From Pseudomonas nitroreducens TX1 (GTDB lineage: Bacteria > Pseudomonadota > Gammaproteobacteria > Pseudomonadales > Pseudomonadaceae): a DNA stretch of 64,000 nt. A program made the position numbers and the translations under genes. Below are positions 20,124-51,866 of this stretch, piece by piece. The DNA is taken from assembly GCF_000313755.1 (NCBI RefSeq), contig NZ_AMZB01000135.1, positions 62,001-126,000 of the forward strand, in the 5' to 3' direction. The notes under the pieces are model-generated. The model was not told where the DNA came from and did not search any database. It saw only the letters and a program-made list of their open reading frames with translations. The first letter of the stretch is position 1; the number at the start of each line of letters is the position of its first letter.

Positions 20124-21884
20124 ATGCATGCCATCGACTTCATCCAGGACCTCGCGGTGATCATGCTGATCGCCGGTTTCGTCACCATTCTCTGCCACCG
20201 TTTCAAGCAGCCGGTGGTGCTGGGCTACATCATCGCCGGGGTGATCATCGGCCCGCACACCCCGCCCTTCGCCCTGGTGCATGACGAGGAGACCATCAAG
20301 ACCCTCGCCGAGCTGGGGGTGATCTTCCTGATGTTCTGCCTGGGCCTGGAATTCTCCCTGCGCAAGCTGTTCCAGGTCGGCGCCACGGCGTTCATCGCCG
20401 CGTTCCTGGAAATCACCCTGATGATCTGGGCCGGCTTCGAGATCGGCCGCCTGTTCGACTGGAGCACCATGGATTCGCTGTTCCTCGGCGCGATCCTGGC
20501 GATGTCCTCCACCACCATCATCATCAAGGTCCTGGGCGACCTGAAGATGAAGAACGAGCGCTTCGCCCAGCTGATCTTCGGCGTGCTGATCATCGAGGAC
20601 ATCCTCGGCATCGGTATCATCGCGCTGTTCTCCGGCATTGCCGTGAGCGGCACGGTGGAGGCCGACCAGGTGTTCTCCACGGTCGGCAAGCTCAGCCTGT
20701 TCATGGTTGTCGCACTGGTCGTCGGCATCCTGCTGGTGCCGCGCCTGCTGGCCTACGTGGCGAAGTTCGAAAGCAACGAGATGCTGCTGGTGACGGTGCT
20801 CGGGCTGTGCTTCGGCTTCTGCCTGCTGGTGGTGAAGCTGGAATACAGCATGATCCTGGGCGCCTTCCTGATCGGCGCGATCATGGCCGAGTCGCGCCAG
20901 TTGGTGCAGATCGAACGGCTGATGGAGCCGGTGCGTGACATGTTCAGCGCGATCTTCTTCGTCGCCATCGGCCTGACCATCGACCCTCGGGTGCTGGTGG
21001 ACTACGCCGCGCCGATCCTGGTGATCACCCTGGTGGTGGTCGCCGGCAAGCTGGTGTCCTGCGGTGCCGGCGCCTTCATCGCCGGCAACGACGGGCGCAC
21101 CTCGATGCGCGTGGGCATGGGACTTTCGCAGATCGGCGAGTTCTCCTTCATCATCGCCGCGCTGGGCATGAGCCTGGGCGTGACCAGCGACTTCCTCTAC
21201 CCGGTGGTGGTGGGGGTGTCGGCCATCACCACGCTGCTGACGCCCTACCTGATCCGCTCGGCCGACCCGCTGGCGCTGTACCTGGGCCGCAGCCTGCCAT
21301 CGCCCATGGTGCGGGTGTTCAGCCTGTACGGCGAATGGCTGCGCAGCATCAAGCCGCGCGGCGACAAGGCGATCCTAGCCGGGATGATCCGCCGCATCCT
21401 GCTGCAGGTCGGGGTCAACCTGACCCTGGTGATCGCGATCTTCTTCGCCCTGGCATTCTTCGCCGGGCAGATCGGCCAGTGGCTGGCGCAGTTCGTCGAA
21501 CAGGAAGCGCTGCACAAGGCGCTGATCTGGGGCGCCGCGCTGCTGCTGTCGCTGCCGTTCCTGATTGCCGCCTACCGCAAGCTCAAGGCGCTGGCGATGC
21601 TGCTGGCGGAAATGGGCGTCAAGGCGGAAAGCGCCGGGCGTCACACCGCCCGCGTGCGCCGGGTGATTTCCGAGCTGATCCCGCTGCTGTCGCTGGGCGG
21701 CATGATGCTGCTCTTGGCGGCGCTCAGTTCGAGCATCCTGCCGCCGGGCGAGCTGCTTGTGGTGGTGGCGCTGATCGCCGCGCTGGTGATCGCGGTGTTC
21801 TGGCGCTGGTTCATCCGCGTGCATTCGCGGATGCAGGTGGCGCTGATCGAGACCTTCGAGCAGAACGGCGGCGGGCATCACTGA
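20124..21884 (+). CDS. CPA2 monovalent cation/proton antiporter (KefB-like, no RCK domain)
   Basis: A 586-residue membrane protein. The exchanger domain covers about residues 1-385 (PVVLGYIIAGVIIGPHTPPF, LGVIFLMFCLGLEFSLRKL, MSSTTIIIKVLGDLK). No TrkA-N domain follows; instead the C-terminal 200 residues contain further hydrophobic helices. This differs from the YbaL-type paralogue at 9.9 kb. It resembles PA5529 of P. aeruginosa by position. Ion specificity is unknown. Confidence 0.85.
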   Translation: MHAIDFIQDLAVIMLIAGFVTILCHRFKQPVVLGYIIAGVIIGPHTPPFALVHDEETIKTLAELGVIFLMFCLGLEFSLRKLFQVGATAFIAAFLEITLMIWAGFEIGRLFDWSTMDSLFLGAILAMSSTTIIIKVLGDLKMKNERFAQLIFGVLIIEDILGIGIIALFSGIAVSGTVEADQVFSTVGKLSLFMVVALVVGILLVPRLLAYVAKFESNEMLLVTVLGLCFGFCLLVVKLEYSMILGAFLIGAIMAESRQLVQIERLMEPVRDMFSAIFFVAIGLTIDPRVLVDYAAPILVITLVVVAGKLVSCGAGAFIAGNDGRTSMRVGMGLSQIGEFSFIIAALGMSLGVTSDFLYPVVVGVSAITTLLTPYLIRSADPLALYLGRSLPSPMVRVFSLYGEWLRSIKPRGDKAILAGMIRRILLQVGVNLTLVIAIFFALAFFAGQIGQWLAQFVEQEALHKALIWGAALLLSLPFLIAAYRKLKALAMLLAEMGVKAESAGRHTARVRRVISELIPLLSLGGMMLLLAALSSSILPPGELLVVVALIAALVIAVFWRWFIRVHSRMQVALIETFEQNGGGHH

Positions 21885-21924
21885 GGTTTCGCCGCTGCTA
21901 CCTGAGATATCGCGAGGGGGCATG

Positions 21925-22039
21925 CCCTCTCCCCCGCCCTCTCCCTGAAGGGAGAGGGAGCCTTCTGGTGCCTCCGGCCAACTCAATGCTTCGCTTGATG
22001 CCGCTCAGTCCCCTCTCCCTTCAGGGAGAGGGGTAGGGA
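21925..22039. repeat. inverted pair of CCCTCTCCC repeat units
   Basis: One unit (21925-21959, containing CTCCCTGAAGGGAG) and a second in opposite orientation (about 22010-22039, CTCCCTTCAGGGAG) face each other in the gap between the antiporter and uvrD. They belong to the same family as the repeats at 73, 53,951 and 59,436. Confidence 0.8.
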
Positions 22040-22099
22040 GTGGGAAATCCGGGCACGCAGTTCCCGAAGAGGACAGCTGCTATTACAGGTGTCGACGCG

Positions 22100-24280
22100 T
22101 CAGATCGCTTCCAGCTTCGCGTAACCCATCATCAGCCACTTGCTACCCTCGCTGTCGAAGTTCACCTGCACCCGCGCCTGGGCGCCGGAACCTTCGAAGT
22201 TGAGGATCACGCCGTCGCCGAACAGCGGGTGGCGCACGGACTGGCCGAGGCTGAACGGAGTGTCCGGCACGCTGGCGCCGCTGAACAGGTTGCCGCTGCG
22301 CTGGTTGCCCGACAACGGGCGGCTCACCGAGTTGGACAGGCGCACTTCCTGGATCAGGCTCGGCGGGATTTCGCGGACGAAGCGCGACACCTTGTTGTAG
22401 GTCTCGCTGCCATACAGCCGTCGGGTTTCGGCATAGGTCATGACCAGGCGGTGCATGGCGCGGGTGATGCCGACATACGCCAGGCGGCGTTCTTCTTCCA
22501 GGCGGCCGGGTTCTTCCAGGCTCATCTTGTGCGGGAACAGGCCTTCTTCCACGCCGGCGAGGAACACCAGCGGGAACTCCAGGCCCTTGGCGCTGTGCAG
22601 CGTCATCAGCTGCACGCTGTCCTCGAAGGCGTCGGCCTGGGTATCGCCGGACTCCAGCGCGGTGTGGTCGAGGAAGGCCACCAGCGGCGGGGTGTCCTCG
22701 TCGTCCGGATTCTCGAAGGCGCGGGCGGCGCTGACCAGTTCTTCCAGGTTTTCCACCCGGGCCTGGCCTTTCTCGCCCTTCTCTTCCTTGTGGTAGGTGA
22801 TCAGCCCGGACTGCTCGATGACGATCTGGGTCATCTGGTGCAGCGGCATGCCCTCGACCTTCACCGCGAGCAGGTCGACGGTTTCCAGGAAGCCGTTGAG
22901 CGCACTCGCGGCGCGGCCGGTCACGGCCTTGGCGGCGATCACGTCGTTGATCGCACGCCACATGGAGGTGCCGTTGTGGCGCGCGGCGTTGCGGATCGCC
23001 TCGACGGTCTTCTCGCCGATGCCGCGTGGCGGCACATTGATCACCCGTTCCAGCGCGGCGTCGTCGTCGCGCAGGCGGATCAGGCGCAGGTAGGCGAGGG
23101 CGTTCTTGATCTCGGCCCGCTCGAAGAAGCGCTGGCCGCCATAGATGCGGTAGGGAATCTTCTCGCGCAGCAGCCCCTCTTCCAGCACGCGGGACTGGGC
23201 GTTGGAGCGGTAGAGGATGGCGATTTCGCTGCGCTTCAAGCCGTCCTTGCGCAGGGCGTCCTCGATGGTTTCGACGATATAGCGCGCCTCGTCGTGCTCG
23301 TTGAAGCCGGCGTAGAGGGTGATCGGGTCGCCGTCGACGCCGTCGGTCCACAGTTCCTTGCCCAGGCGCCCGCTGTTATTGGCGATCAGCGCATTGGCGG
23401 CCTTGAGGATGGTGCCGGTGGAGCGGTAGTTCTGCTCCAGGCGGATGTCCTCGGTGCCGGCGAAGTCATCGCCGAACTGCTGGATGTTCTCGATCTTCGC
23501 GCCGCGCCAGCCGTAGATCGACTGGTCGTCGTCGCCCACCACCATCAGGCTCTCGCCGCCCTTGCCGAGCAAGCGCAGCCAGGCGTACTGCACGGCGTTG
23601 GTGTCCTGGAACTCGTCCACCAGGATGTGGCGGAAGCGCCGCTGGTAGTGCTCCAGCAGGCTCGGGCGGTCGCGCCAGAGGTCCAGCGAGCGCAGCAGGA
23701 GCTCGGCGAAGTCCACCACGCCGGCACGGGCGCAGGCTTCTTCATAGGCCTGGTAGACGCTGACCATGGTGGACAGGTACAGGTCGCCGCCGGCCTGGAT
23801 GTTCTGCGGGCGGTTGCCCTCGTCCTTCTGGCCGTTGATGAACCACTGCGCCTGGCGCGGCGGCCAGCGCTGCTCATCGAGGCCCAGCTCGCGCACCACG
23901 CGTTTGACCAGGCGCAGCTGGTCGTCGCTGTCGAGGATCTGGAAGTTTTCCGGCAATCCGGCTTCCTGCCAGTGCGCGCGCAGCAGGCGGTGCGCCAGTC
24001 CGTGGAAGGTGCCGACCCACATGCCGGCCGGGTTGATGCCCAGCAGCTGCTCGATCCGCGCGCGCATCTCGGCGGCGGCCTTGTTGGTGAAGGTCACGGC
24101 CAGGATGCTGTGCGGCGAGGCGTTCTCGACCTGGATCAGCCAGGCGATACGGTGCACCAGCACGCGGGTCTTGCCGGACCCGGCGCCAGCGAGCACGCGC
24201 TGGCGCCCCAGCGGCGCGGCCACGGCCTGGCGCTGCGGGTCATTGAGGGAGTTGAGCAGGTAGGAGATGTCATCGTTCAT
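22100..24280 (-). CDS. uvrD: DNA helicase II, UvrD
   Basis: A 726-residue SF1A 3'-5' helicase acting in nucleotide excision and mismatch repair. Walker A is AGAGSGKTR (31-39), the Q motif is LNDPQRQAV (12-20), motif II is LVDEFQDTNAVQY, motif III is VVGDDDQSIYGWRGA, and motif VI is VGITRAMHRL. The C-terminal SH3-like UvrD domain is present (VRHPLFGDGVILNFEG). I chose the ATG at 24280; the longer frame lacks conservation. The length agrees with Pseudomonas UvrD. No LexA box is visible upstream. Confidence 0.95.
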   Translation of the reverse strand: MNDDISYLLNSLNDPQRQAVAAPLGRQRVLAGAGSGKTRVLVHRIAWLIQVENASPHSILAVTFTNKAAAEMRARIEQLLGINPAGMWVGTFHGLAHRLLRAHWQEAGLPENFQILDSDDQLRLVKRVVRELGLDEQRWPPRQAQWFINGQKDEGNRPQNIQAGGDLYLSTMVSVYQAYEEACARAGVVDFAELLLRSLDLWRDRPSLLEHYQRRFRHILVDEFQDTNAVQYAWLRLLGKGGESLMVVGDDDQSIYGWRGAKIENIQQFGDDFAGTEDIRLEQNYRSTGTILKAANALIANNSGRLGKELWTDGVDGDPITLYAGFNEHDEARYIVETIEDALRKDGLKRSEIAILYRSNAQSRVLEEGLLREKIPYRIYGGQRFFERAEIKNALAYLRLIRLRDDDAALERVINVPPRGIGEKTVEAIRNAARHNGTSMWRAINDVIAAKAVTGRAASALNGFLETVDLLAVKVEGMPLHQMTQIVIEQSGLITYHKEEKGEKGQARVENLEELVSAARAFENPDDEDTPPLVAFLDHTALESGDTQADAFEDSVQLMTLHSAKGLEFPLVFLAGVEEGLFPHKMSLEEPGRLEEERRLAYVGITRAMHRLVMTYAETRRLYGSETYNKVSRFVREIPPSLIQEVRLSNSVSRPLSGNQRSGNLFSGASVPDTPFSLGQSVRHPLFGDGVILNFEGSGAQARVQVNFDSEGSKWLMMGYAKLEAI

Positions 24281-24456: not shown

Positions 24457-27300
24457 ATGACCGCTTATGTAGAGCCTTCGGCGATCCCGGTGAGCCATGC
24501 CGAGATCCGCCAGCAGTACGCTCACGAAATTGCCGTCGAACGCACGCGTCTCCTCTACCAGGGCTCGCGCGTGCCGACCCTGCTCATGCTGCTCAATGGC
24601 CTGGCCTGCGCCGGCCTGCTGTGGGATTACGTGAAGCTGGGGCTGCTCGCCGGATGGCTGATCTGGCTGGTAATGCTGGCCATGCTGCGACTGATCCAGG
24701 TCAGCGCCTTCAATGCCGCTTCCGCCGAACGCCAGGCCAGTCCGCACTGGCAGCGCACCTTCCTGTTCGGTGCAGGCGCTTCGGGGCTGACACTGGCCTT
24801 CGCCGCCATCGCCCTGGTGCCGCCGGACGCCTTCCTCCAGCAGTCCCTGGTCTTCGGCCTGATTGCCGCGGCCATCCTGTCCGCCAGCGTTGCCTATGCG
24901 GTGAGCCTGCCGGCCTTCCTCACGTTTGCCTTGCCCTGTCTGTTCCCCTCCATTGCCTATTTATTGATCAGTGATAACCCACTGCAGCAGGGCTGGGGCG
25001 TGCTCGGGGTGATCCTGCTGGCGGCGCTGCTGGTGGTGGCCTGGCAGATCCACCGGGTCGTGCATGTCGGCCTGCTGCGGCGCTTCCAGGCCCAGGCGCT
25101 GGTGGCGCACCTGGAGCGCGCCAAGGCACAGACCGAGGCGCTGAACCAGGACCTGGAGCGTGAAGTCGAGCAGCGTCGCCGTGCCGAGCGTGAACTGTGC
25201 CGCGCCCGTGACGCCCTGCAGGAGCGGGTCGAGGCCGGCAGCGTGCAACTGACCCATACCGAGGCACGTCTGGCCCTGGCGCTGGAAGCCAGCGAGCTGG
25301 GGCTGTGGGACTGGAACCTGCTGACCGACGAAGTGCACCACTCGCACCTGGAGGAAATCTTCGGCATCACCCAGGACGCCGTGAAGAGCGTGCGAAACGA
25401 CCTGCGCCCGCGCCTGCACCCCGACGACCTTCCGCTGCTGCGCCGCGCGCTGGTCGAGCACCTCAAGGGACGCACCGACGGCTACCGCATCGAGTACCGC
25501 GTGCGCCATGCGGCTGGCCACTGGGTCTGGGTGGAAGACCGTGGCCGGGTGATGGAGCGTGACAGCCGCGGGCAGGTCACGCGGATGGTCGGCACCCGTG
25601 CCGACATCTCCACGCGCAAGCTGCGCGAAGAGGAGCAGCGCCTGGCGGCCACGGTGTTCGAGGCCGCCAGCGAAGGCATCATCATCCTCGACCCGGATTA
25701 CCGCCTGATCGCCCTCAACGAGGCCTTCACCCGCCTCACCGGCTATCGCCGCGAAGAGGTGCTGGGGCACAACGTCGCGCGCCTGATGGGCTCCTCGGAA
25801 GCCCTGCGCCGGTACCAGTCGATCCGCGCCGACCTGGAGCGCCTGGGCTCCTGGCAGGGCGAACTGATCGAGACGCGCAAGAACGGCGAACTCTACCCGC
25901 AATGGCTGCAACTCAACGTGGTGCGCGACAGCCGCGGCCAGGTCGCCCACGTGGTCGGCTTCTTCGCCGACCTCACTGCCCGCCGCGATGCCGAGGAGCG
26001 CTTGCGCTACCTGTCGCACTACGACGAACTCACGGGCCTGGCCAACCGCACCTTGTTCAAGGAACGCCTGCACGAGGCCAGCCAGCGCGCCCGCCAGGAA
26101 GGCCGCACGGCGGCGCTGCTGCTGATCGACCTGGATCGCTTCAAGCTGCTCAATGACAGCCTCGGCCACGAAGTCGCCGACCAGCTGCTGAGGCAGATGT
26201 CGCGGCGCATGACCCAGACCGTGCCCGAGGCCGACACCATCGCCCGGCTGTCCGGCGACGAGTTCGCCGTGCTGATCGACTCCTACGCCAGCCTCGCCGC
26301 GCTGGCTCGGCTGTCCAGCCGCCTGCTGGCCAAGCTGCGCACGCCGATGACCGTGGGTGGCCACGAACTGATGATCAGCGCCTCGGTGGGCATCAGCCTG
26401 TTGCCGGAGAACGCCTGGGAAATCTCCGCGCTGATGAGCCAGGCGAACATGGCCATGCAGCACGCCAAGCATCTGGGCGGAAATACCTTCCAGTTCTTCA
26501 CCGACAACCTGCAGGCCTGCACCCTGGAGCGCCTGCAGCTGGAAACCCGCCTGCGCAAGGCCATCGACGAAGGCCAGCTGGACGTGCACTACCAGCCCAA
26601 GCTGAACCTCGCCAACGAGCGCCTGGACAGCGCCGAGGCGCTGGTGCGCTGGCGTCATCCGGAAATGGGCATGGTGCCGCCCAGCGACTTCATCGGCCTC
26701 GCCGAGGAAACCGGGCTGATCGGCGCCATCGGCGAATTCGTCCTGCGCCGCGCCTGCCAGCAGGCCCGCGCGTGGCAGAAGCTTGGGCGCGAACTGCGGG
26801 TGTCGGTGAACCTCTCGGTGCACCAGCTGCGCACCGGCAACCTGGTCGACCTGGTGCGTACCGTGCTGGAGGACACCGGCCTGCCGCCGCATCTGCTGGA
26901 GCTGGAGCTCACCGAAAGCCAGCTGCTGGATAACGTCGAGAGCGTCACCGCGACCTTCCGCCAGCTGCGCGAGATGGGCGTGAAGCTGGCCATCGACGAT
27001 TTCGGCACCGGCTATTCCTCGCTCAGCTACCTCAAGCGTTTCCCGGTGGACTACGTGAAGATCGACCAGACCTTCATCCGCGACCTGTCCGAGCGCGGCG
27101 AAGACGCGGCCATCACCCGGGCCATCATCGCCATGGCACACAGCCTGGAACTGAAGGTGGTGGCCGAAGGCGTCGAGCACGCCGAACAGCTGCGCTTCCT
27201 GCGCGCCCACGGCTGCGACGAGATACAGGGCTACCTGATCAGCCAGCCGGTACCGGCGGAGGCCTGCCTGGCGCTGCTGGAGAGAAGCGACCGGCTCTGA
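24457..27300 (+). CDS. membrane PAS-PAS-GGDEF-EAL cyclic-di-GMP protein
   Basis: A 947-residue protein. N-terminal membrane segments (about residues 30-190) are followed by a coiled coil (about 215-265), two PAS/PAC units (about 267-390 and 395-515), a GGDEF domain (about 525-690) and an EAL domain (about 700-945). The cyclase signature is SGDEF, a tolerated variant of GGDEF. The EAL domain keeps EALVRWRHP, ELTES, IDDFGTGYSSL and VVAEGVE, so phosphodiesterase activity is plausible. The neighbouring uvrD matches the PA5442-PA5443 order of P. aeruginosa from memory. The ATG at 24457 was chosen. Confidence 0.9.
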   Translation: MTAYVEPSAIPVSHAEIRQQYAHEIAVERTRLLYQGSRVPTLLMLLNGLACAGLLWDYVKLGLLAGWLIWLVMLAMLRLIQVSAFNAASAERQASPHWQRTFLFGAGASGLTLAFAAIALVPPDAFLQQSLVFGLIAAAILSASVAYAVSLPAFLTFALPCLFPSIAYLLISDNPLQQGWGVLGVILLAALLVVAWQIHRVVHVGLLRRFQAQALVAHLERAKAQTEALNQDLEREVEQRRRAERELCRARDALQERVEAGSVQLTHTEARLALALEASELGLWDWNLLTDEVHHSHLEEIFGITQDAVKSVRNDLRPRLHPDDLPLLRRALVEHLKGRTDGYRIEYRVRHAAGHWVWVEDRGRVMERDSRGQVTRMVGTRADISTRKLREEEQRLAATVFEAASEGIIILDPDYRLIALNEAFTRLTGYRREEVLGHNVARLMGSSEALRRYQSIRADLERLGSWQGELIETRKNGELYPQWLQLNVVRDSRGQVAHVVGFFADLTARRDAEERLRYLSHYDELTGLANRTLFKERLHEASQRARQEGRTAALLLIDLDRFKLLNDSLGHEVADQLLRQMSRRMTQTVPEADTIARLSGDEFAVLIDSYASLAALARLSSRLLAKLRTPMTVGGHELMISASVGISLLPENAWEISALMSQANMAMQHAKHLGGNTFQFFTDNLQACTLERLQLETRLRKAIDEGQLDVHYQPKLNLANERLDSAEALVRWRHPEMGMVPPSDFIGLAEETGLIGAIGEFVLRRACQQARAWQKLGRELRVSVNLSVHQLRTGNLVDLVRTVLEDTGLPPHLLELELTESQLLDNVESVTATFRQLREMGVKLAIDDFGTGYSSLSYLKRFPVDYVKIDQTFIRDLSERGEDAAITRAIIAMAHSLELKVVAEGVEHAEQLRFLRAHGCDEIQGYLISQPVPAEACLALLERSDRL

Positions 27301-27340
27301 GCGTGCCGGTCGCGGGGGGGCGTGAAGCCGCGGGGATGGA

Positions 27341-27646
27341 TTACTTGAGGGTGACGATCCACTCGGCGAGGGTCTTGGCCTCGTCCGGGCTGACGGCGTT
27401 CGCCGGCATCGGGATCGGCCCCCAGACGCCCTTGCTGCCGGCCTTGATGCTGTTGCTGATGTGCGCAACGCCGTTGGCCCCGTACTTCGTCGCAACTTCC
27501 TTGAAGGCCGGGCCGACCACCGTCTTGTTGACGGCGTGACAGGCCACGCAGGCCTTGGCCTTGAACAGCTCCTCGCCGGTGCTGGCCATCGCGGTGGTCT
27601 GCACGAGCAAGCCGCCGAACAGCAGGGCAACCAGGGCTTTGTTCAT
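27341..27646 (-). CDS. nirM: periplasmic cytochrome c-551-like, NirM type
   Basis: A 101-residue class-I cytochrome c. The signal peptide covers 1-21, heme binding is by CVACH (Cys33, Cys36, His37), and the axial Met is Met80 in WGPIPMPANAV. The sequence is close to P. aeruginosa cytochrome c-551 (NirM), electron donor to nitrite reductase. Here it would serve NirK or the NO reductase. A perfect FNR/DNR box lies 107 bp upstream with a fitting -10 (TAGAAT on the minus strand, 27729-27724). In P. aeruginosa nirM follows nirS; here no nirS is present. The symbol is by similarity. Confidence 0.82.
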   Translation of the reverse strand: MNKALVALLFGGLLVQTTAMASTGEELFKAKACVACHAVNKTVVGPAFKEVATKYGANGVAHISNSIKAGSKGVWGPIPMPANAVSPDEAKTLAEWIVTLK

Positions 27647-45613: not shown

Positions 45614-45829
45614 ATGCCCCGCCATATCGACGACACCCAGCTCCAACTGGACGCCAAGACCCGCCGCAAGCTTGAAGATCAGCGGCGCATGCAGTTCCGT
45701 CGCGCCATCGAAGACCGCATGGAGGCGCAACGCCTCGCCGTGGAAACCTCCGATTACCCCGATCTGATTGCCGCTGCCTATCTCACTTCTGCACGGGTGG
45801 GCCGGCGAAACGTTCAGCCAGCTGGCTGA
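45614..45829 (+). CDS. small basic protein of unknown function
   Basis: A 71-residue charged protein. The start is supported by GGGAG eight bases upstream. The core LDAKTRRKLEDQRRMQFRRAIEDRMEAQRLAVE is a long basic helix, similar as far as I remember to the short PA3496-like Pseudomonas proteins; this family match is unsure. Its 3' end overlaps the convergent pycR gene by 47 bp. Confidence 0.55.
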   Translation: MPRHIDDTQLQLDAKTRRKLEDQRRMQFRRAIEDRMEAQRLAVETSDYPDLIAAAYLTSARVGRRNVQPAG

Positions 45830-46733
45830 TCAGCGCCCGCTCTTCACGGATGAAGGCGACGAACGCCTGGGCGACAGGGCTCAGGCGTTTGCCGCGGGCG
45901 TGCACCAGACACCAGCTACGGTAGAGCGGCAGCTCTTCCACCGGCAGCTCATGCAGCAGCCCGGACTGCAGTTCGCGACTCACCGCATGGCGCGGTAGCA
46001 GCGCCAATCCCAGCCCAGCCAATACGCCTTCCCGCGATCCCTCCAGCGAGGCGAATTCCAGCGTCTGCGGGAAGTGCGCGCGCTTCTGCTGGAAGTGTTC
46101 CTCGCAGGCCTTGCGCGTGCCCGAGCCGGGCTCGCGGATCAGCAGCGGGTAAGGCTCCAGGTCCTTCAGCGACAGCTTGGCGGCATTGCACAGCGGGTGA
46201 TCCGGCGGCGCCACCGCGATGATCGGGTTGTTCAGGAAGGGCAGGAACTCCAGGGCCATGTCCTGGGGCACCAGGGACATGATCACCAGATCGTCACGGT
46301 TGTCCGACAGGCGCTTGATCGCCTGGGCGCGGTTGACCACGGTGAGGTTCAGGCTGACGTCCGGGTGCTGCGCGTGGAAGGCGGCGAACAGGTGCGGGGT
46401 GATGTACTTGGCGCTGGATTCCACTGCCAGGCGCAACTGGCCCTGCAGCGAGCCCTTGAGGTCGGAGAGGTTCATGTCCAGCACTTCCAGGCGCTGGAAA
46501 ATGTCGTTGGTGGCGCGCAGCAGGGCGTCGGCGGCATCGGTCTGGTAAAGCTTCTTACCGATGTACTCGAACAGCGGCTGGCCAACCAATTCTTCAAGCT
46601 GGCGAATCTGCAGGCTGACCGCAGGCTGGGTCAGCGCCATTTCCTCCGCTGCCCGGCTGTAGGAACGGCTTTCGCACACAGCGCGAAAAACCTGCAGCTG
46701 GCGAAGTGTCATACGCATCAATGACTTACGCAT
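45783..46733 (-). CDS. pycR: PycR, LysR-family regulator divergent from pyruvate carboxylase
   Basis: A 316-residue LysR regulator. The HTH is ESRSYSRAAEEMALTQPAVS, followed by the co-inducer domain (about 95-300). Start candidates are 46733, 46718 and 46712; I chose 46733 (MRKSLMRMTLRQLQVF), as I recall for PA5437. It is divergent from pycA with an inverted repeat ATAAAG-CATT-CTTTAT between them. PycR in P. aeruginosa regulates pyruvate carboxylase and affects lung virulence. Confidence 0.88.
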   Translation of the reverse strand: MRKSLMRMTLRQLQVFRAVCESRSYSRAAEEMALTQPAVSLQIRQLEELVGQPLFEYIGKKLYQTDAADALLRATNDIFQRLEVLDMNLSDLKGSLQGQLRLAVESSAKYITPHLFAAFHAQHPDVSLNLTVVNRAQAIKRLSDNRDDLVIMSLVPQDMALEFLPFLNNPIIAVAPPDHPLCNAAKLSLKDLEPYPLLIREPGSGTRKACEEHFQQKRAHFPQTLEFASLEGSREGVLAGLGLALLPRHAVSRELQSGLLHELPVEELPLYRSWCLVHARGKRLSPVAQAFVAFIREERALISQLAERFAGPPVQK

Positions 46734-46768
46734 AGAAGCCTGCCTGATGAGGACATTTTTCAAGAACT

Positions 46769-46784: not shown

Positions 46785-46807
46785 GGCTACCCCAATAATT
46801 ATTGATT

Positions 46808-46836
46808 TTGGTTAATCCTCCCTCCCGCGCTAGGGT
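46808..46836 (+). promoter_or_regulatory. probable pycA promoter
   Basis: TTGGTT (46808-46813) and TAGGGT (46831-46836) are separated by 17 bases. Each is a partial match to the sigma-70 hexamers, and the pair fits the upstream LysR operator spacing. Confidence 0.4.
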
Positions 46837-46945
46837 AAATCCCACGCCGGAACCCGCTCCGGCCAACATATCCAGCTGCCGTTTGCAGAGCTGCCGATTG
46901 GTTTTACGCCGGGGCCCTCGAGGTCCGGGCCGAGGGAAAGCCGCA

Positions 46946-48361
46946 GTGATCAAGAAAATCCTGATCGCCAACCGTGGGGAGATCGCTGTCCGGATCGTGC
47001 GCGCCTGCGCCGAGATGGGCATCCGTTCGGTGGCCGTCTATTCCGACGCCGACCGCCACGCCCTGCATGTGAAGCGTGCCGACGAAGCACACAGCCTGGG
47101 CGCCGATCCTCTGGCGGGTTATCTGAACCCCCGCGCCCTGGTGAACCTGGCGGTGGAAACCGGCTGCGACGCCCTGCACCCGGGCTACGGCTTCCTCTCC
47201 GAGAACGCCGAGCTGGCCGATATCTGCGCCGAACGCGGGATCAAGTTCATCGGCCCGTCGGCGGAAGTGATCCGCCGCATGGGCGACAAGACCGAAGCGC
47301 GCCGCAGCATGATCGCCGCCGGCGTGCCCTGCACCCCGGGCACCGAAGGCAACGTCGCCGACCTGGCCGAAGCCATTTCCGAAGCCGAGCGCATCGGTTA
47401 CCCGGTGATGCTCAAGGCCACCTCCGGCGGTGGCGGCCGCGGCATCCGTCGCTGCAACAGTCGCGAAGAGCTGGAGCAGAACTTCCCCCGCGTCATCTCC
47501 GAAGCCACCAAGGCCTTCGGCAGCGCGGAAGTCTTCCTCGAGAAGTGCATCGTCAACCCGAAGCACATCGAAGCCCAGGTGCTGGCCGACTCCTTCGGCA
47601 ACACCGTGCACCTGTTCGAGCGCGATTGCTCGATCCAGCGCCGTAACCAGAAGCTCATCGAGATCGCCCCCAGCCCGCAGCTGACCCCCGAGCAGCGCGC
47701 CTACATCGGCGACCTGTCGGTGCGCGCGGCCAAGGCCGTGGGCTATGAGAACGCCGGCACCGTGGAGTTCCTGCTCGCCGATGGCGAGGTGTACTTCATG
47801 GAGATGAACACCCGCGTGCAGGTGGAGCACACCATCACCGAGGAAATCACCGGCATCGACATCGTCCGCGAGCAGATCCGCATCGCCTCCGGCCTGCCAC
47901 TCTCGGTCAAGCAGGAAGACATCATTCACCGTGGCTTCGCGTTGCAGTTCCGGATCAACGCCGAAGACCCGAAGAACAATTTCCTGCCGTCCTTCGGCAA
48001 GATCACGCGCTACTACGCACCCGGTGGCCCCGGCGTGCGCACCGACACCGCGATCTACACCGGCTACACCATCCCGCCGTACTACGACTCGATGTGCCTG
48101 AAGCTGGTGGTCTGGGCGCTGACCTGGGAAGAGGCGCTGGACCGTGGTCTGCGTGCGCTGGACGACATGCGCGTGCAGGGCGTGAAGACTACCGCGGCCT
48201 ATTACCAGGAAATCCTCAAGAACCCGGAATTCCGTAACGGCCAGTTCAACACCAGCTTCGTCGAAAGCCACCCGGAACTGACCCAGTACTCGATCAAGCG
48301 CACCCCGTCGCACCTGGCCATCGCCATCGCTACCGCCATTGCCGCCCACGCTGGCCTGTGA
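46946..48361 (+). CDS. pycA: pyruvate carboxylase subunit A (biotin carboxylase)
   Basis: A 471-residue biotin-dependent ATP-grasp enzyme that carboxylates biotin using bicarbonate and ATP. The start is the GTG at 46946 (VIKKILIANRGEIAVRIVR). The ATP loop is ATSGGGGRGIRR, the catalytic stretch is YFMEMNTRVQVEHTITEE, and the C-terminal domain includes GFALQFRINAEDPKN. AccC is the paralogue in fatty-acid synthesis; adjacency to pycB makes this the PycA form. pycB follows after 11 bases. Confidence 0.93.
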   Translation: MIKKILIANRGEIAVRIVRACAEMGIRSVAVYSDADRHALHVKRADEAHSLGADPLAGYLNPRALVNLAVETGCDALHPGYGFLSENAELADICAERGIKFIGPSAEVIRRMGDKTEARRSMIAAGVPCTPGTEGNVADLAEAISEAERIGYPVMLKATSGGGGRGIRRCNSREELEQNFPRVISEATKAFGSAEVFLEKCIVNPKHIEAQVLADSFGNTVHLFERDCSIQRRNQKLIEIAPSPQLTPEQRAYIGDLSVRAAKAVGYENAGTVEFLLADGEVYFMEMNTRVQVEHTITEEITGIDIVREQIRIASGLPLSVKQEDIIHRGFALQFRINAEDPKNNFLPSFGKITRYYAPGGPGVRTDTAIYTGYTIPPYYDSMCLKLVVWALTWEEALDRGLRALDDMRVQGVKTTAAYYQEILKNPEFRNGQFNTSFVESHPELTQYSIKRTPSHLAIAIATAIAAHAGL

Positions 48362-48372
48362 GGAATTCGTCC

Positions 48373-49761
48373 ATGACCGTTTCCAAGAAAGTCACCGTCA
48401 CCGATACCATCCTGCGCGACGCCCACCAGTCGCTGCTGGCGACCCGGATGCGCACCGAAGACATGCTGCCGATCTGCGACAAGCTCGACCAGGTCGGCTA
48501 CTGGTCGCTGGAAGTCTGGGGCGGCGCCACCTTCGACGCCTGCGTGCGCTTCCTCAAGGAAGACCCCTGGGAGCGCCTGCGCAAGCTCAAGGCCGCGCTG
48601 CCCAACACCCGCCTGCAGATGCTTCTGCGCGGGCAGAACCTGCTGGGCTACCGCCACTACAGCGACGACGTGGTGCGCGCCTTCGTCGCCAAGGCGGCGG
48701 TCAACGGCATCGATGTGTTCCGCATCTTCGACGCGATGAACGACGTGCGTAACCTGCGCGTCTCCATCGAGGCTGTGAAGGCCGCCGGCAAGCACGCCCA
48801 GGGCACCATCGCCTACACCACCAGCCCGGTGCATACCATCGACGCCTTCGTGGCCCAGGGCAAAGCGATGGCCGACATGGGCGTGGATTCCATCGCCATC
48901 AAGGACATGGCCGGTCTGCTGACCCCCTACGCCACCGGCGAACTGGTCAAGGCGCTGAAGGACGCGCTGCCGCTGGACGTGGTGGTGCACTCCCACGACA
49001 CTGCCGGTGTTGCCAGCATGTGCCAGCTGAAAGCTGTCGAGAATGGCGCCGACCGCATCGACACCGCCATCTCCAGCATGGCCTGGGGCACCAGCCACCC
49101 GGGTACCGAATCCATGGTCGCCGCCCTGCGCGACACCCCGTTCGACACCGGCCTGGACTTGGAACTGATCCAGGAAATCGGCATGTACTTCCACGCCGTG
49201 CGCAAGAAGTACCACCAGTTCGAGAGCGAGTTCACCGGCGTGGATACCCGCGTGCAGGTCAACCAGGTGCCGGGCGGGATGATTTCCAACCTGGCCAACC
49301 AGCTCAAGGAACAGGGCGCGCTGAACCGCATGCCGGAAGTGCTGGCGGAGATCCCGCGGGTTCGCGAAGACCTCGGCTTCCCGCCCCTGGTCACCCCGAC
49401 CTCGCAGATCGTCGGCACCCAGGCGTTCTTCAACGTGCTGGCCGGCGAGCGCTACAAGACCATCACCAACGAGGTGAAGCTCTACCTGCAGGGCCGCTAT
49501 GGCAAGGCGCCGGGCACCATCAACGAAGCGCTGCGCCGCCAGGCCATCGGTAACGAGGAAGTCATCGACGTGCGCCCGGCCGACCTGCTCAAGCCGGAGC
49601 TGAACAAGCTGCGCGAAGAGATCGGCAGCCTGGCCAAGTCCGAAGAGGTCGAGCCGCTCAGCAGGTTCAGGTTGCCGGTCACGTGGGCGGCGCCGGTTGC
49701 CGGCGAGGCGATCAGGGTACCGGCGACATTCAGGCCGCCGACGCTGCCGCTGCCCGAGTAG
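48373..49761 (+). CDS. pycB: pyruvate carboxylase subunit B (OadA-type), 3'-truncated
   Basis: The frame encodes 462 residues. Residues 1 to about 425 are a normal carboxyltransferase: start TDTILRDAHQSLLATRMR, metal-site HSHDTAG, and carbamylated-Lys context SIAIKDMAG. Intact homologues have about 600 residues and end in a biotinyl domain with the MKM lysine. Here similarity stops after SLAKSEE near 49,648, and the next 37 residues come from the antisense of a neighbouring autotransporter-like gene. The rest of the PYC/OADA domain and the whole biotin carrier are missing, so the product should be inactive. This is a deletion or an assembly error. Confidence 0.85.
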   Translation: MTVSKKVTVTDTILRDAHQSLLATRMRTEDMLPICDKLDQVGYWSLEVWGGATFDACVRFLKEDPWERLRKLKAALPNTRLQMLLRGQNLLGYRHYSDDVVRAFVAKAAVNGIDVFRIFDAMNDVRNLRVSIEAVKAAGKHAQGTIAYTTSPVHTIDAFVAQGKAMADMGVDSIAIKDMAGLLTPYATGELVKALKDALPLDVVVHSHDTAGVASMCQLKAVENGADRIDTAISSMAWGTSHPGTESMVAALRDTPFDTGLDLELIQEIGMYFHAVRKKYHQFESEFTGVDTRVQVNQVPGGMISNLANQLKEQGALNRMPEVLAEIPRVREDLGFPPLVTPTSQIVGTQAFFNVLAGERYKTITNEVKLYLQGRYGKAPGTINEALRRQAIGNEEVIDVRPADLLKPELNKLREEIGSLAKSEEVEPLSRFRLPVTWAAPVAGEAIRVPATFRPPTLPLPE

Positions 49762-51212
49762 GTGGCGCCCTGGTCGATCTGCAGGGTGCCCAGCAGGCTG
49801 CCGGTGTTGCTCAGGCTGGCGCCGCTGAAGACTTCGCCGCCTTCGCTGAAATCGTCGGTGCTGGAGAGCGTCCAGCTGCCCTGTTTCACGTCCAGCCATT
49901 CGAAGTTGGCGCTGTTGCCGAAGCGGCCGCCAGCGGCATCGTCGAGGGTCACGCTATCGCGGCCGCTACCGCCGTCCACCAGGCCTTCGAAGCGGCTGCC
50001 GGAGAGCAGGACCAGCGAGTCGTTGCCGCCGCCCATTTCCAGGGCCACGCCGTTGCCGCCGTGGATCAGACCGTCGTTGATCACGCTGTCGTCGAGGTCA
50101 CCGGAGAAGGTCACGCCCGAGGAGGATTCGCCGCTGATGCTGCCGTGGTTTTCCAGGTAGGTGGCGCTGAAGCCGCTGTTGCCGTTGCCGTCGTCGACCA
50201 GGATGCCGCGGTCCACGCTGCGGATGACCGCGCCGGCGTAATTGATGAGGGTGCCGCCGCCCATGGCGATACCTTCGCTGCCGTTGGGCGAGCCGTCCTT
50301 CGAGCCGGCGGCGCCGGTGCCTTCGATGATGCCGTGGTTTTCGATGTGGCCGGTGTAGTCGATGTCGACGCCATCGCCGTCGCCGTTTGGCACCAGGCCG
50401 TTGTAGGCGCCACTGATGCGCCCGTAGTTGATCACCGTGCCATCGCCGTCGGAGCCGAAGCCTGAGCCATTGCGGCCGATGATCACGCCGTCCGCGTAGT
50501 TGATCAGGGTGGCGCCGACGTCGGTGGTAATGCCATGGCGGCCGCCACTGATGAGACCGTGGTTTTCCACTTGGCCGCCCGAGGCGCCCTGGAAGTCGAT
50601 GCCGTCGTTCTTGGTGTCGGCGGTGATCATGTCCGAGCTGCTGATCTCGCCGTAGTTGCTGATCGTCGCATTGCCGCCGGGACGGATAGCGTCGTTGCCG
50701 TCACTGTGGATCACGCCGCTGGCGCGGTTGATGATCGTGACCGTCGCCGCGCTTTGCAGCTTGTCCAGGTCCAGCGCCTGGCCGGTGGCAGAGGTGATGC
50801 TGCCGGCGTTGTCGATCAGCACGTTGCCGGCGCTGAACGGGTTGTTCATGCGGATGGCGTCGTCGTAGCCGACGATCCGCCCGTCTTCGCGGTTGATGAT
50901 CTGGTAGAAGCGCGTGGTGCTGTCACTCCCGGAGGTGTCGACCACGCGGCCGGTGGTGGACTGCATCAGGCCGCTGTTGTCGATGACCACGCCCGTGCCG
51001 GTGGCCGCGCCCTTGAGGTCGATGCTCTTGCCGCGGGTGACCAGGCTGCCTGTGCGGGTGACGGTCAGGGTGTCCTGGTTGGCCAGGGTGCGGCTGGCGG
51101 TCTGTGCGTCGGTGATGATCGGCGAGACCGACACGGCCTGGGCAGATTCGGTGGCCAGGGTCGCCAGGACCACGGCGATGCTCAGGGCGAGCGGGGTGGG
51201 CGTGTGCAGCAT
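49497..51212 (-). CDS. autotransporter-like exported passenger protein, 3'-truncated
   Basis: A 571-residue frame with a signal peptide ([22 protein letters not shown]) and a repetitive beta-helix passenger (many NHG-I-G and NYG-I-SG repeats, for example [18 protein letters not shown]). Residues to about 521 are passenger. The last 50 are the antisense of pycB and not genuine. The rest of the passenger and the C-terminal beta-barrel that secretes it are absent, so it cannot reach the surface as drawn. The start at 51212 is clear from the signal peptide. Confidence 0.75.
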
Positions 51213-51375: not shown

Positions 51376-51717
51376 GTGAGCCAGCTGCCGCCCTGCCCCA
51401 AATGCAACTCCGAATACACCTACGAAGACGGCGCTCAGCTGGTCTGCCCCGAGTGCGCCCACGAGTGGTCCGCTGACGGCTCGGGCGAGTCCGACGGCGA
51501 TGCTCGCGTGATCAAGGACTCGGTCGGCAACCTGCTGCAGGACGGCGATACCGTCACCGTGATCAAGGACCTCAAGGTCAAGGGCTCGTCCCTGGTGGTG
51601 AAGGTCGGTACCAAGGTGAAGAACATCCGCCTGGTGGACGGCGACCACGACATCGACTGCAAGATCGACGGCATCGGCGCGATGAAGCTGAAGTCGGAGT
51701 TCGTGAAGAAGGTCTGA
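51376..51717 (+). CDS. yjdM: YjdM/PhnA-family zinc-ribbon protein
   Basis: A 113-residue protein. The start is the GTG at 51376 ([19 protein letters not shown]). It has an N-terminal zinc ribbon (CPKC and CPEC) and the PhnA beta domain ([38 protein letters not shown]). The family was once linked to alkylphosphonate use, but its actual role is unclear. It is monocistronic with a terminator after it. Confidence 0.9.
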
Positions 51718-51764: not shown

Positions 51765-51772
51765 GTGCTCTT

Positions 51773-51866
51773 TGCAGGAGCGAGCTTGCTCGCGAACCGC
51801 CCAGCTTCAGTACATGCCCGGGGCCCTGTTCGCGAGCTAGGACTGGGCGTCCCCCTCGCTCCTGCA
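51773..51866. repeat. REP pair, canonical arm plus inverted long variant arm
   Basis: The canonical-type arm is at 51773-51797. The second arm (51838-51866) is the long variant in reverse, beginning GTTCGCGAGCTAGG and ending CCCCCTCGCTCCTGCA. Confidence 0.82.

Follow-up and report, generated by a model that had tools for sequence, protein, structure and literature searches.

The pycB locus of strain TX1

The DNA analysed here, hereafter the window, is a 64,000-nucleotide stretch of a contig from Pseudomonas nitroreducens TX1. Within it, pycR, encoding a LysR-type regulator, and pycA, encoding the biotin carboxylase subunit of pyruvate carboxylase, lie beside pycB, which is shortened and joined tail to tail to a convergent, likewise shortened autotransporter gene; a gene for a phnA/yjdM-like zinc ribbon protein lies on the far side (Table 1). 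The true start of pycA may lie downstream of the longest-ORF start. A regulator named PycR appears in an extract of PMC9765439.

Table 1. Features at the pycB locus, in window coordinates
Feature	Positions	Strand	Remarks
pycR	45783..46763	-	LysR-type regulator; ORF intact; name taken from the earlier note
pycA	46802..48361	+	Biotin carboxylase subunit, intact; Pfam Biotin_carb_N, CPSase_L_D2, Biotin_carb_C
Truncated pycB	48373..49761	+	425 native residues, then 37 foreign ones; retains the carboxyltransferase domain but not the carrier domain
Joint of the proposed deletion	49646..49648	.	About 3.2 kb missing; 2-bp overlap (GG) at 49647-49648
Truncated autotransporter gene	49497..51212	-	About 520 native passenger residues and about 50 foreign ones; beta-barrel lost
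phnA/yjdM-like zinc ribbon gene	51376..51717	+	Flanks the event; GTG start read from the sequence; collinear with relatives

Judging from the sequence and from comparison with relatives, pycB switches to the antisense of the autotransporter gene between positions 49646 and 49647, one or two bases away from the abrupt change that an earlier note on this DNA, made from the sequence only, had put at about 49,648. The pycB frame opens at 48373, carries native residues up to 49647 and reaches its stop codon at 49759-49761, while the autotransporter ORF on the minus strand runs from 51212 to 49497, its roughly 50 foreign residues being the antisense of pycB. The two tails of about 37 and 50 residues, through which both frames stay open, are present as that note had described them, but they are not remarkable: when joints were placed at random between the same two genes of the relative G007, tails of at least 37 and at least 50 residues arose in both frames in 43% of 5,000 trials. 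A 27-base pattern running across the joint, with up to three mismatches allowed, was matched in one of 25 genomes of the genus, that of TX1 itself.

The flanking phnA/yjdM-like gene shares 85% DNA identity with plasmid genes annotated yjdM. When the locus was compared with plasmids by megablast, 18 of 72,556 records matched, none of them over more than 80% of the query, and the annotated pieces within these matches were phnA/yjdM and biotin carboxylase genes. In the spacer that separates phnA from the following gene, about 100 bp (window 51768-51863) match another spot of the G007 locus, inverted and at 84% identity, and may be a dispersed intergenic repeat.

DNA present in close relatives is absent from the window

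The PycB and autotransporter remnants were searched for in 56 genomes, that of TX1 included. Some match to the PycB remnant was found in 54 of them; three of these matches (in G042, G048 and G054) are weak and, by the look of it, represent other enzymes. The autotransporter was matched in 14 genomes: TX1 itself, nine at 90-92% identity, three at 65-67%, in which the gene sits on a different contig from pycB, and one with a weak match. The nine genomes at 90-92% were taken as the close relatives, and the locus was fetched from each.

In all nine, pycB and the autotransporter gene are both open and convergent, with a cytochrome c gene between them; PycB reaches residue 604 and the autotransporter frames span 996-1008 residues. 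Every one of these relatives holds, between the arms that match the window, 2,898-3,451 bp that the window lacks. Measured against G007, the missing piece is 3,234 bp long and comprises the end of pycB, the cytochrome c gene and the 3' half of the autotransporter gene with its barrel. Across the genus, PycB is full-length in all 24 other genomes compared, and that of TX1 alone stops, at residue 426.

A copy of the missing DNA of about 3.2 kb was also sought in the 6.69-Mb TX1 assembly. Of 277 initial candidates 40 were scored, and they gave only five matches, 57-107 bp long with 70-81% identity. With no match longer than 107 bp among those scored, neither the 3' end of pycB nor the barrel, both of which the earlier note had counted as missing, was found elsewhere in the genome. 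We therefore favour one deletion event, recent and about 3.2 kb in size, within the lineage of the strain, which would have removed the 3' part of pycB together with a terminator-like hairpin behind it, the cytochrome c gene and the 3' half of the autotransporter gene (rough probability 0.86). The earlier note had proposed a deletion of more than 1.5 kb between two convergent genes; a deletion is indeed what the comparison points to, at about 3.2 kb, but it would have taken a third gene, that for the cytochrome c, as well.

Domains and genes affected

In the truncated PycB, Pfam finds the HMGL-like carboxyltransferase domain and an incomplete PYC_OADA domain (positions 1-144 of 201) but no Biotin_lipoyl domain, whereas the intact PycB of G007 matches PYC_OADA at 1-198 and carries Biotin_lipoyl at 537-602. 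Relative to G007, 179 of 604 residues are missing, including the biotin carrier domain with the lysine of its AMKM motif (K569 in G007), in good agreement with the loss of about 180 residues and the biotin lysine that had been read from the sequence. The comparison with relatives likewise bears out that the carrier domain is lost while pycR and pycA are kept. The remnant resembles the two-subunit pyruvate carboxylase PycA/PycB of Pseudomonas in the pycA-pycB gene order, in its carboxyltransferase domain and in its 98-99% identity to the nine close relatives, and differs from it in lacking the carrier domain and the end of PYC_OADA. The Pseudomonas enzyme is of the alpha4-beta4 type according to the title of a reference in the extract of PMC9765439.

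A second pyruvate carboxylase was sought in the TX1 genome through the PYC_OADA family, and none was found besides the remnant, the single gene that this search returned. The gene for PEP carboxylase is whole. Many database relatives of the PycB encoded at 48373-49761 have been named sodium-extruding oxaloacetate decarboxylase subunit alpha by their sources, and the intact PycB of G007 scores above the TIGR01108 cut-off; with pycA next door, this naming looks misleading.

The cytochrome c ORF within the missing piece of G007 has 248 codons. Two CXXCH motifs can be seen in it by eye, and Pfam, queried with the last 234 codons, reports one Cytochrom_C domain. An orthologue lies behind pycB in 18 of the 24 other genomes of the genus, including all nine close relatives, and the best match to the lost gene within the TX1 genome, at 37% identity, lies elsewhere. 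In the relatives G001 and G011, the cytochrome c match behind pycB contains one in-frame TGA each, and the gene may be decaying there too.

The truncated autotransporter protein has no Pfam match, and the C-terminal beta-barrel (PF03797) is absent from it; in the intact G007 protein the Autotransporter barrel occupies residues 723-973 of 993. With the 3' half of the gene missing, the proposal that the autotransporter had lost both the rest of its passenger and its barrel was correct. Its first 520 residues, which are 90-92% identical to those of the nine intact relatives, are like an autotransporter of type V secretion, from which the window gene departs in having no barrel. In one of the other genomes searched, that of Pseudomonas sp. 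CAN1, a second partial copy of the passenger, about 55 residues at 91-93% identity, lies at the extreme end of a separate contig (L086, 3-167).

The joint carries no long homology

With the nine relatives standing in for the direct ancestor, the two arms overlap exactly at the joint by 2 bp (GG) in five and not at all in four. The GAGG microhomology suggested earlier is thus not supported by these relatives, in which the overlap is at most 2 bp (GG). A repeat was also sought within 50 bp of both ends: the longest direct word shared was 5-7 bases in all nine relatives, no more than between random pairs of places. The word CCGAAG occurs near both ends in four of the nine, but it is four bases out of register and so did not give the observed joint.

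The joint is without long homology, the assembly yielded no copy of the missing DNA elsewhere, and a gene for the end-joining protein Ku is present in the strain. The ends were probably joined without long homology, either by end joining or by slippage. In P. aeruginosa, large chromosomal deletions by end joining have been reported (Shen et al., 2018, as described in an extract of PMC7719229). The proposed deletion resembles that case in its kilobase scale, in its joint without a long repeat and in the Ku gene; end joining is a candidate mechanism here.

In G007, a terminator-like hairpin with eight T stands just behind pycB (consensus-match scan; 4 sites found, 1.3 expected) and forms part of the lost DNA. 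Scanning the window itself for terminators gave two minus-strand sites where 3.2 would be expected, a result that is uninformative alone. Because the hairpin belongs to the lost DNA, the pycAB transcript may now run on as an antisense to the autotransporter remnant.

Deletion, assembly artefact or mixed culture

A chimeric read or a wrong join that fused points about 3.2 kb apart and omitted the DNA between them would leave the same arrangement. The TX1 assembly is a draft of 138 contigs, which favours such an error, yet it is rated 100% complete and the missing DNA was found on none of its contigs; moreover, the joint lies well inside a contig of 182,452 bp and shows no repeat, beyond what chance would give, to lead an assembler astray. 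A search of the protein database with residues 400-462 of the PycB fusion gave 388 matches, the best 120 of which were listed. Among these 120, the tail is present in one only, P0121, which is 100% identical to the 462-aa fusion protein of the window, and the others cover about 41% of the query, that is, its native part. Since the longest contig for P0121 measures 4,395 bp, this copy of the fusion protein belongs to a different contig record, although this contig is possibly a separate assembly of the same reads.

The autotransporter side of the joint counts against the deletion: among the best 120 of 583 matches to that fusion protein, none exceeds 91% identity, and neither the fusion nor the window's own protein is included. 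Two of these 120 cover 100% of the query, but they are 990 residues long at 53-54% identity and are not the fusion. An artefact would also suit the lack of decay in the pycB remnant (see below), which fits a very recent event as well. Since no copy of the missing DNA was found, no repeat beyond chance lies at the joint and the fusion protein occurs on a different contig, we consider an assembly error unlikely.

A very recent event also resembles a sweep during cultivation, as if the stock contained cells with and without the deletion and the former had become dominant. Against this, the search of the assembly turned up no copy of the missing 3.2 kb, and we regard a mixed culture as very unlikely.

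The proposed deletion appears recent

For the preferred reading, a deletion in the lineage of the strain, the constraint on the remaining genes bears on its age. The pycB remnant gave dN/dS values of 0.021-0.057 against the nine relatives, compared with 0.008-0.105 (median 0.047) for the 36 pairs of relatives, and the autotransporter remnant gave 0.187-0.230, compared with a median of 0.204 among the relatives (0.111-0.289). Values for pycA (0.010-0.025) are somewhat high but within the range of the relatives (median 0.006, range 0 to 0.032), and those for pycR against the nine relatives are 0.048-0.064.

At positions invariant in the nine relatives, residues unique to TX1 number zero in pycA and one in the pycB remnant, at residue 382. 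We rejected this residue as a sign of decay, for it is present in 3 of the 21 intact 604-residue PycB proteins compared (those among P0121-P0146 within the best 120 of 388 matches). TX1 has the most unique residues of the ten genomes both in pycR (5; others 0-1) and in the autotransporter remnant (11; others 1-10). This excess is read as a longer branch, because the TX1 lineage also has the most unique synonymous changes in pycR; it could hint at slight relaxation.

One of the three intact proteins that share residue 382, P0132 (source name Pseudomonas sp. NY15436), matches the remnant at every one of the 425 native residues; the event therefore looks recent. Taken together, these comparisons show no decay of pycB since the loss, and the event is probably one at the level of the strain.

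Could the truncated PycB still work, either as a carboxyltransferase served by the biotin carrier of another protein (for example, that of acetyl-CoA carboxylase) or as a plain oxaloacetate decarboxylase? Its HMGL-like domain is whole, PycA is conserved, and 12 stretches with a biotin/lipoyl domain in the TX1 genome provide candidate carriers. However, the PYC_OADA match ends at position 144 of 201, with foreign sequence after it, and recency alone accounts for the lack of decay. We find it extremely improbable that the protein works in this way, and equally so that it has been kept, as a biotin-free or borrowed-carrier enzyme with an intact PycA, in a rewired anaplerotic step.

Other segments absent from the window

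Two further gaps were seen elsewhere in the window. At 27296-27343, four of five relatives compared (G007, G009, G024 and G018) have about 7.7 kb that the window and G011 lack. In G007 this stretch encodes nitrous oxide reductase (nosZ), NosD, an ABC transporter and an FMN/4Fe-4S protein, which we take to be NosR, and the nosZ match of G009, G024 and G018 falls in the same stretch. Distribution of nosZ in the genus is patchy, with the gene in 12 of 25 genomes and none in that of TX1, and loss of nitrous oxide reductase at 27,296 is therefore unsupported as the mark of a shrinking region. At 21884-22102, about 9 kb present in G007 and G018 is absent from the window; in G007 it encodes a sulfatase, an acyltransferase, glycosyltransferases and a sulfotransferase.

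Predicted consequences for the strain

A PycB without its biotin carrier would have no means of handing the carboxyl group from PycA on to pyruvate, so that pyruvate carboxylase would be lost. Oxaloacetate could still be made by way of PEP carboxylase. According to an extract of PMC9765439, mutants of P. aeruginosa with defects in pyruvate carboxylase (pycA and pycB) do not grow on propionate; by analogy with these mutants, we predict that TX1 has no pyruvate carboxylase and grows poorly on propionate. Growth on lactate or pyruvate is perhaps also impaired, although this is a guess. On the other side of the joint, the autotransporter passenger would no longer be displayable, because the barrel is gone.

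The assembly is unsuitable as a reference for pycB, for the neighbouring cytochrome c and for the autotransporter. The locus offers a clear example of a strain without an anaplerotic enzyme that all 24 other genomes of the genus compared have kept, with a simple testable phenotype in growth on propionate; it is otherwise an ordinary gene-inactivating deletion that hits pyruvate carboxylase and two of its neighbours.
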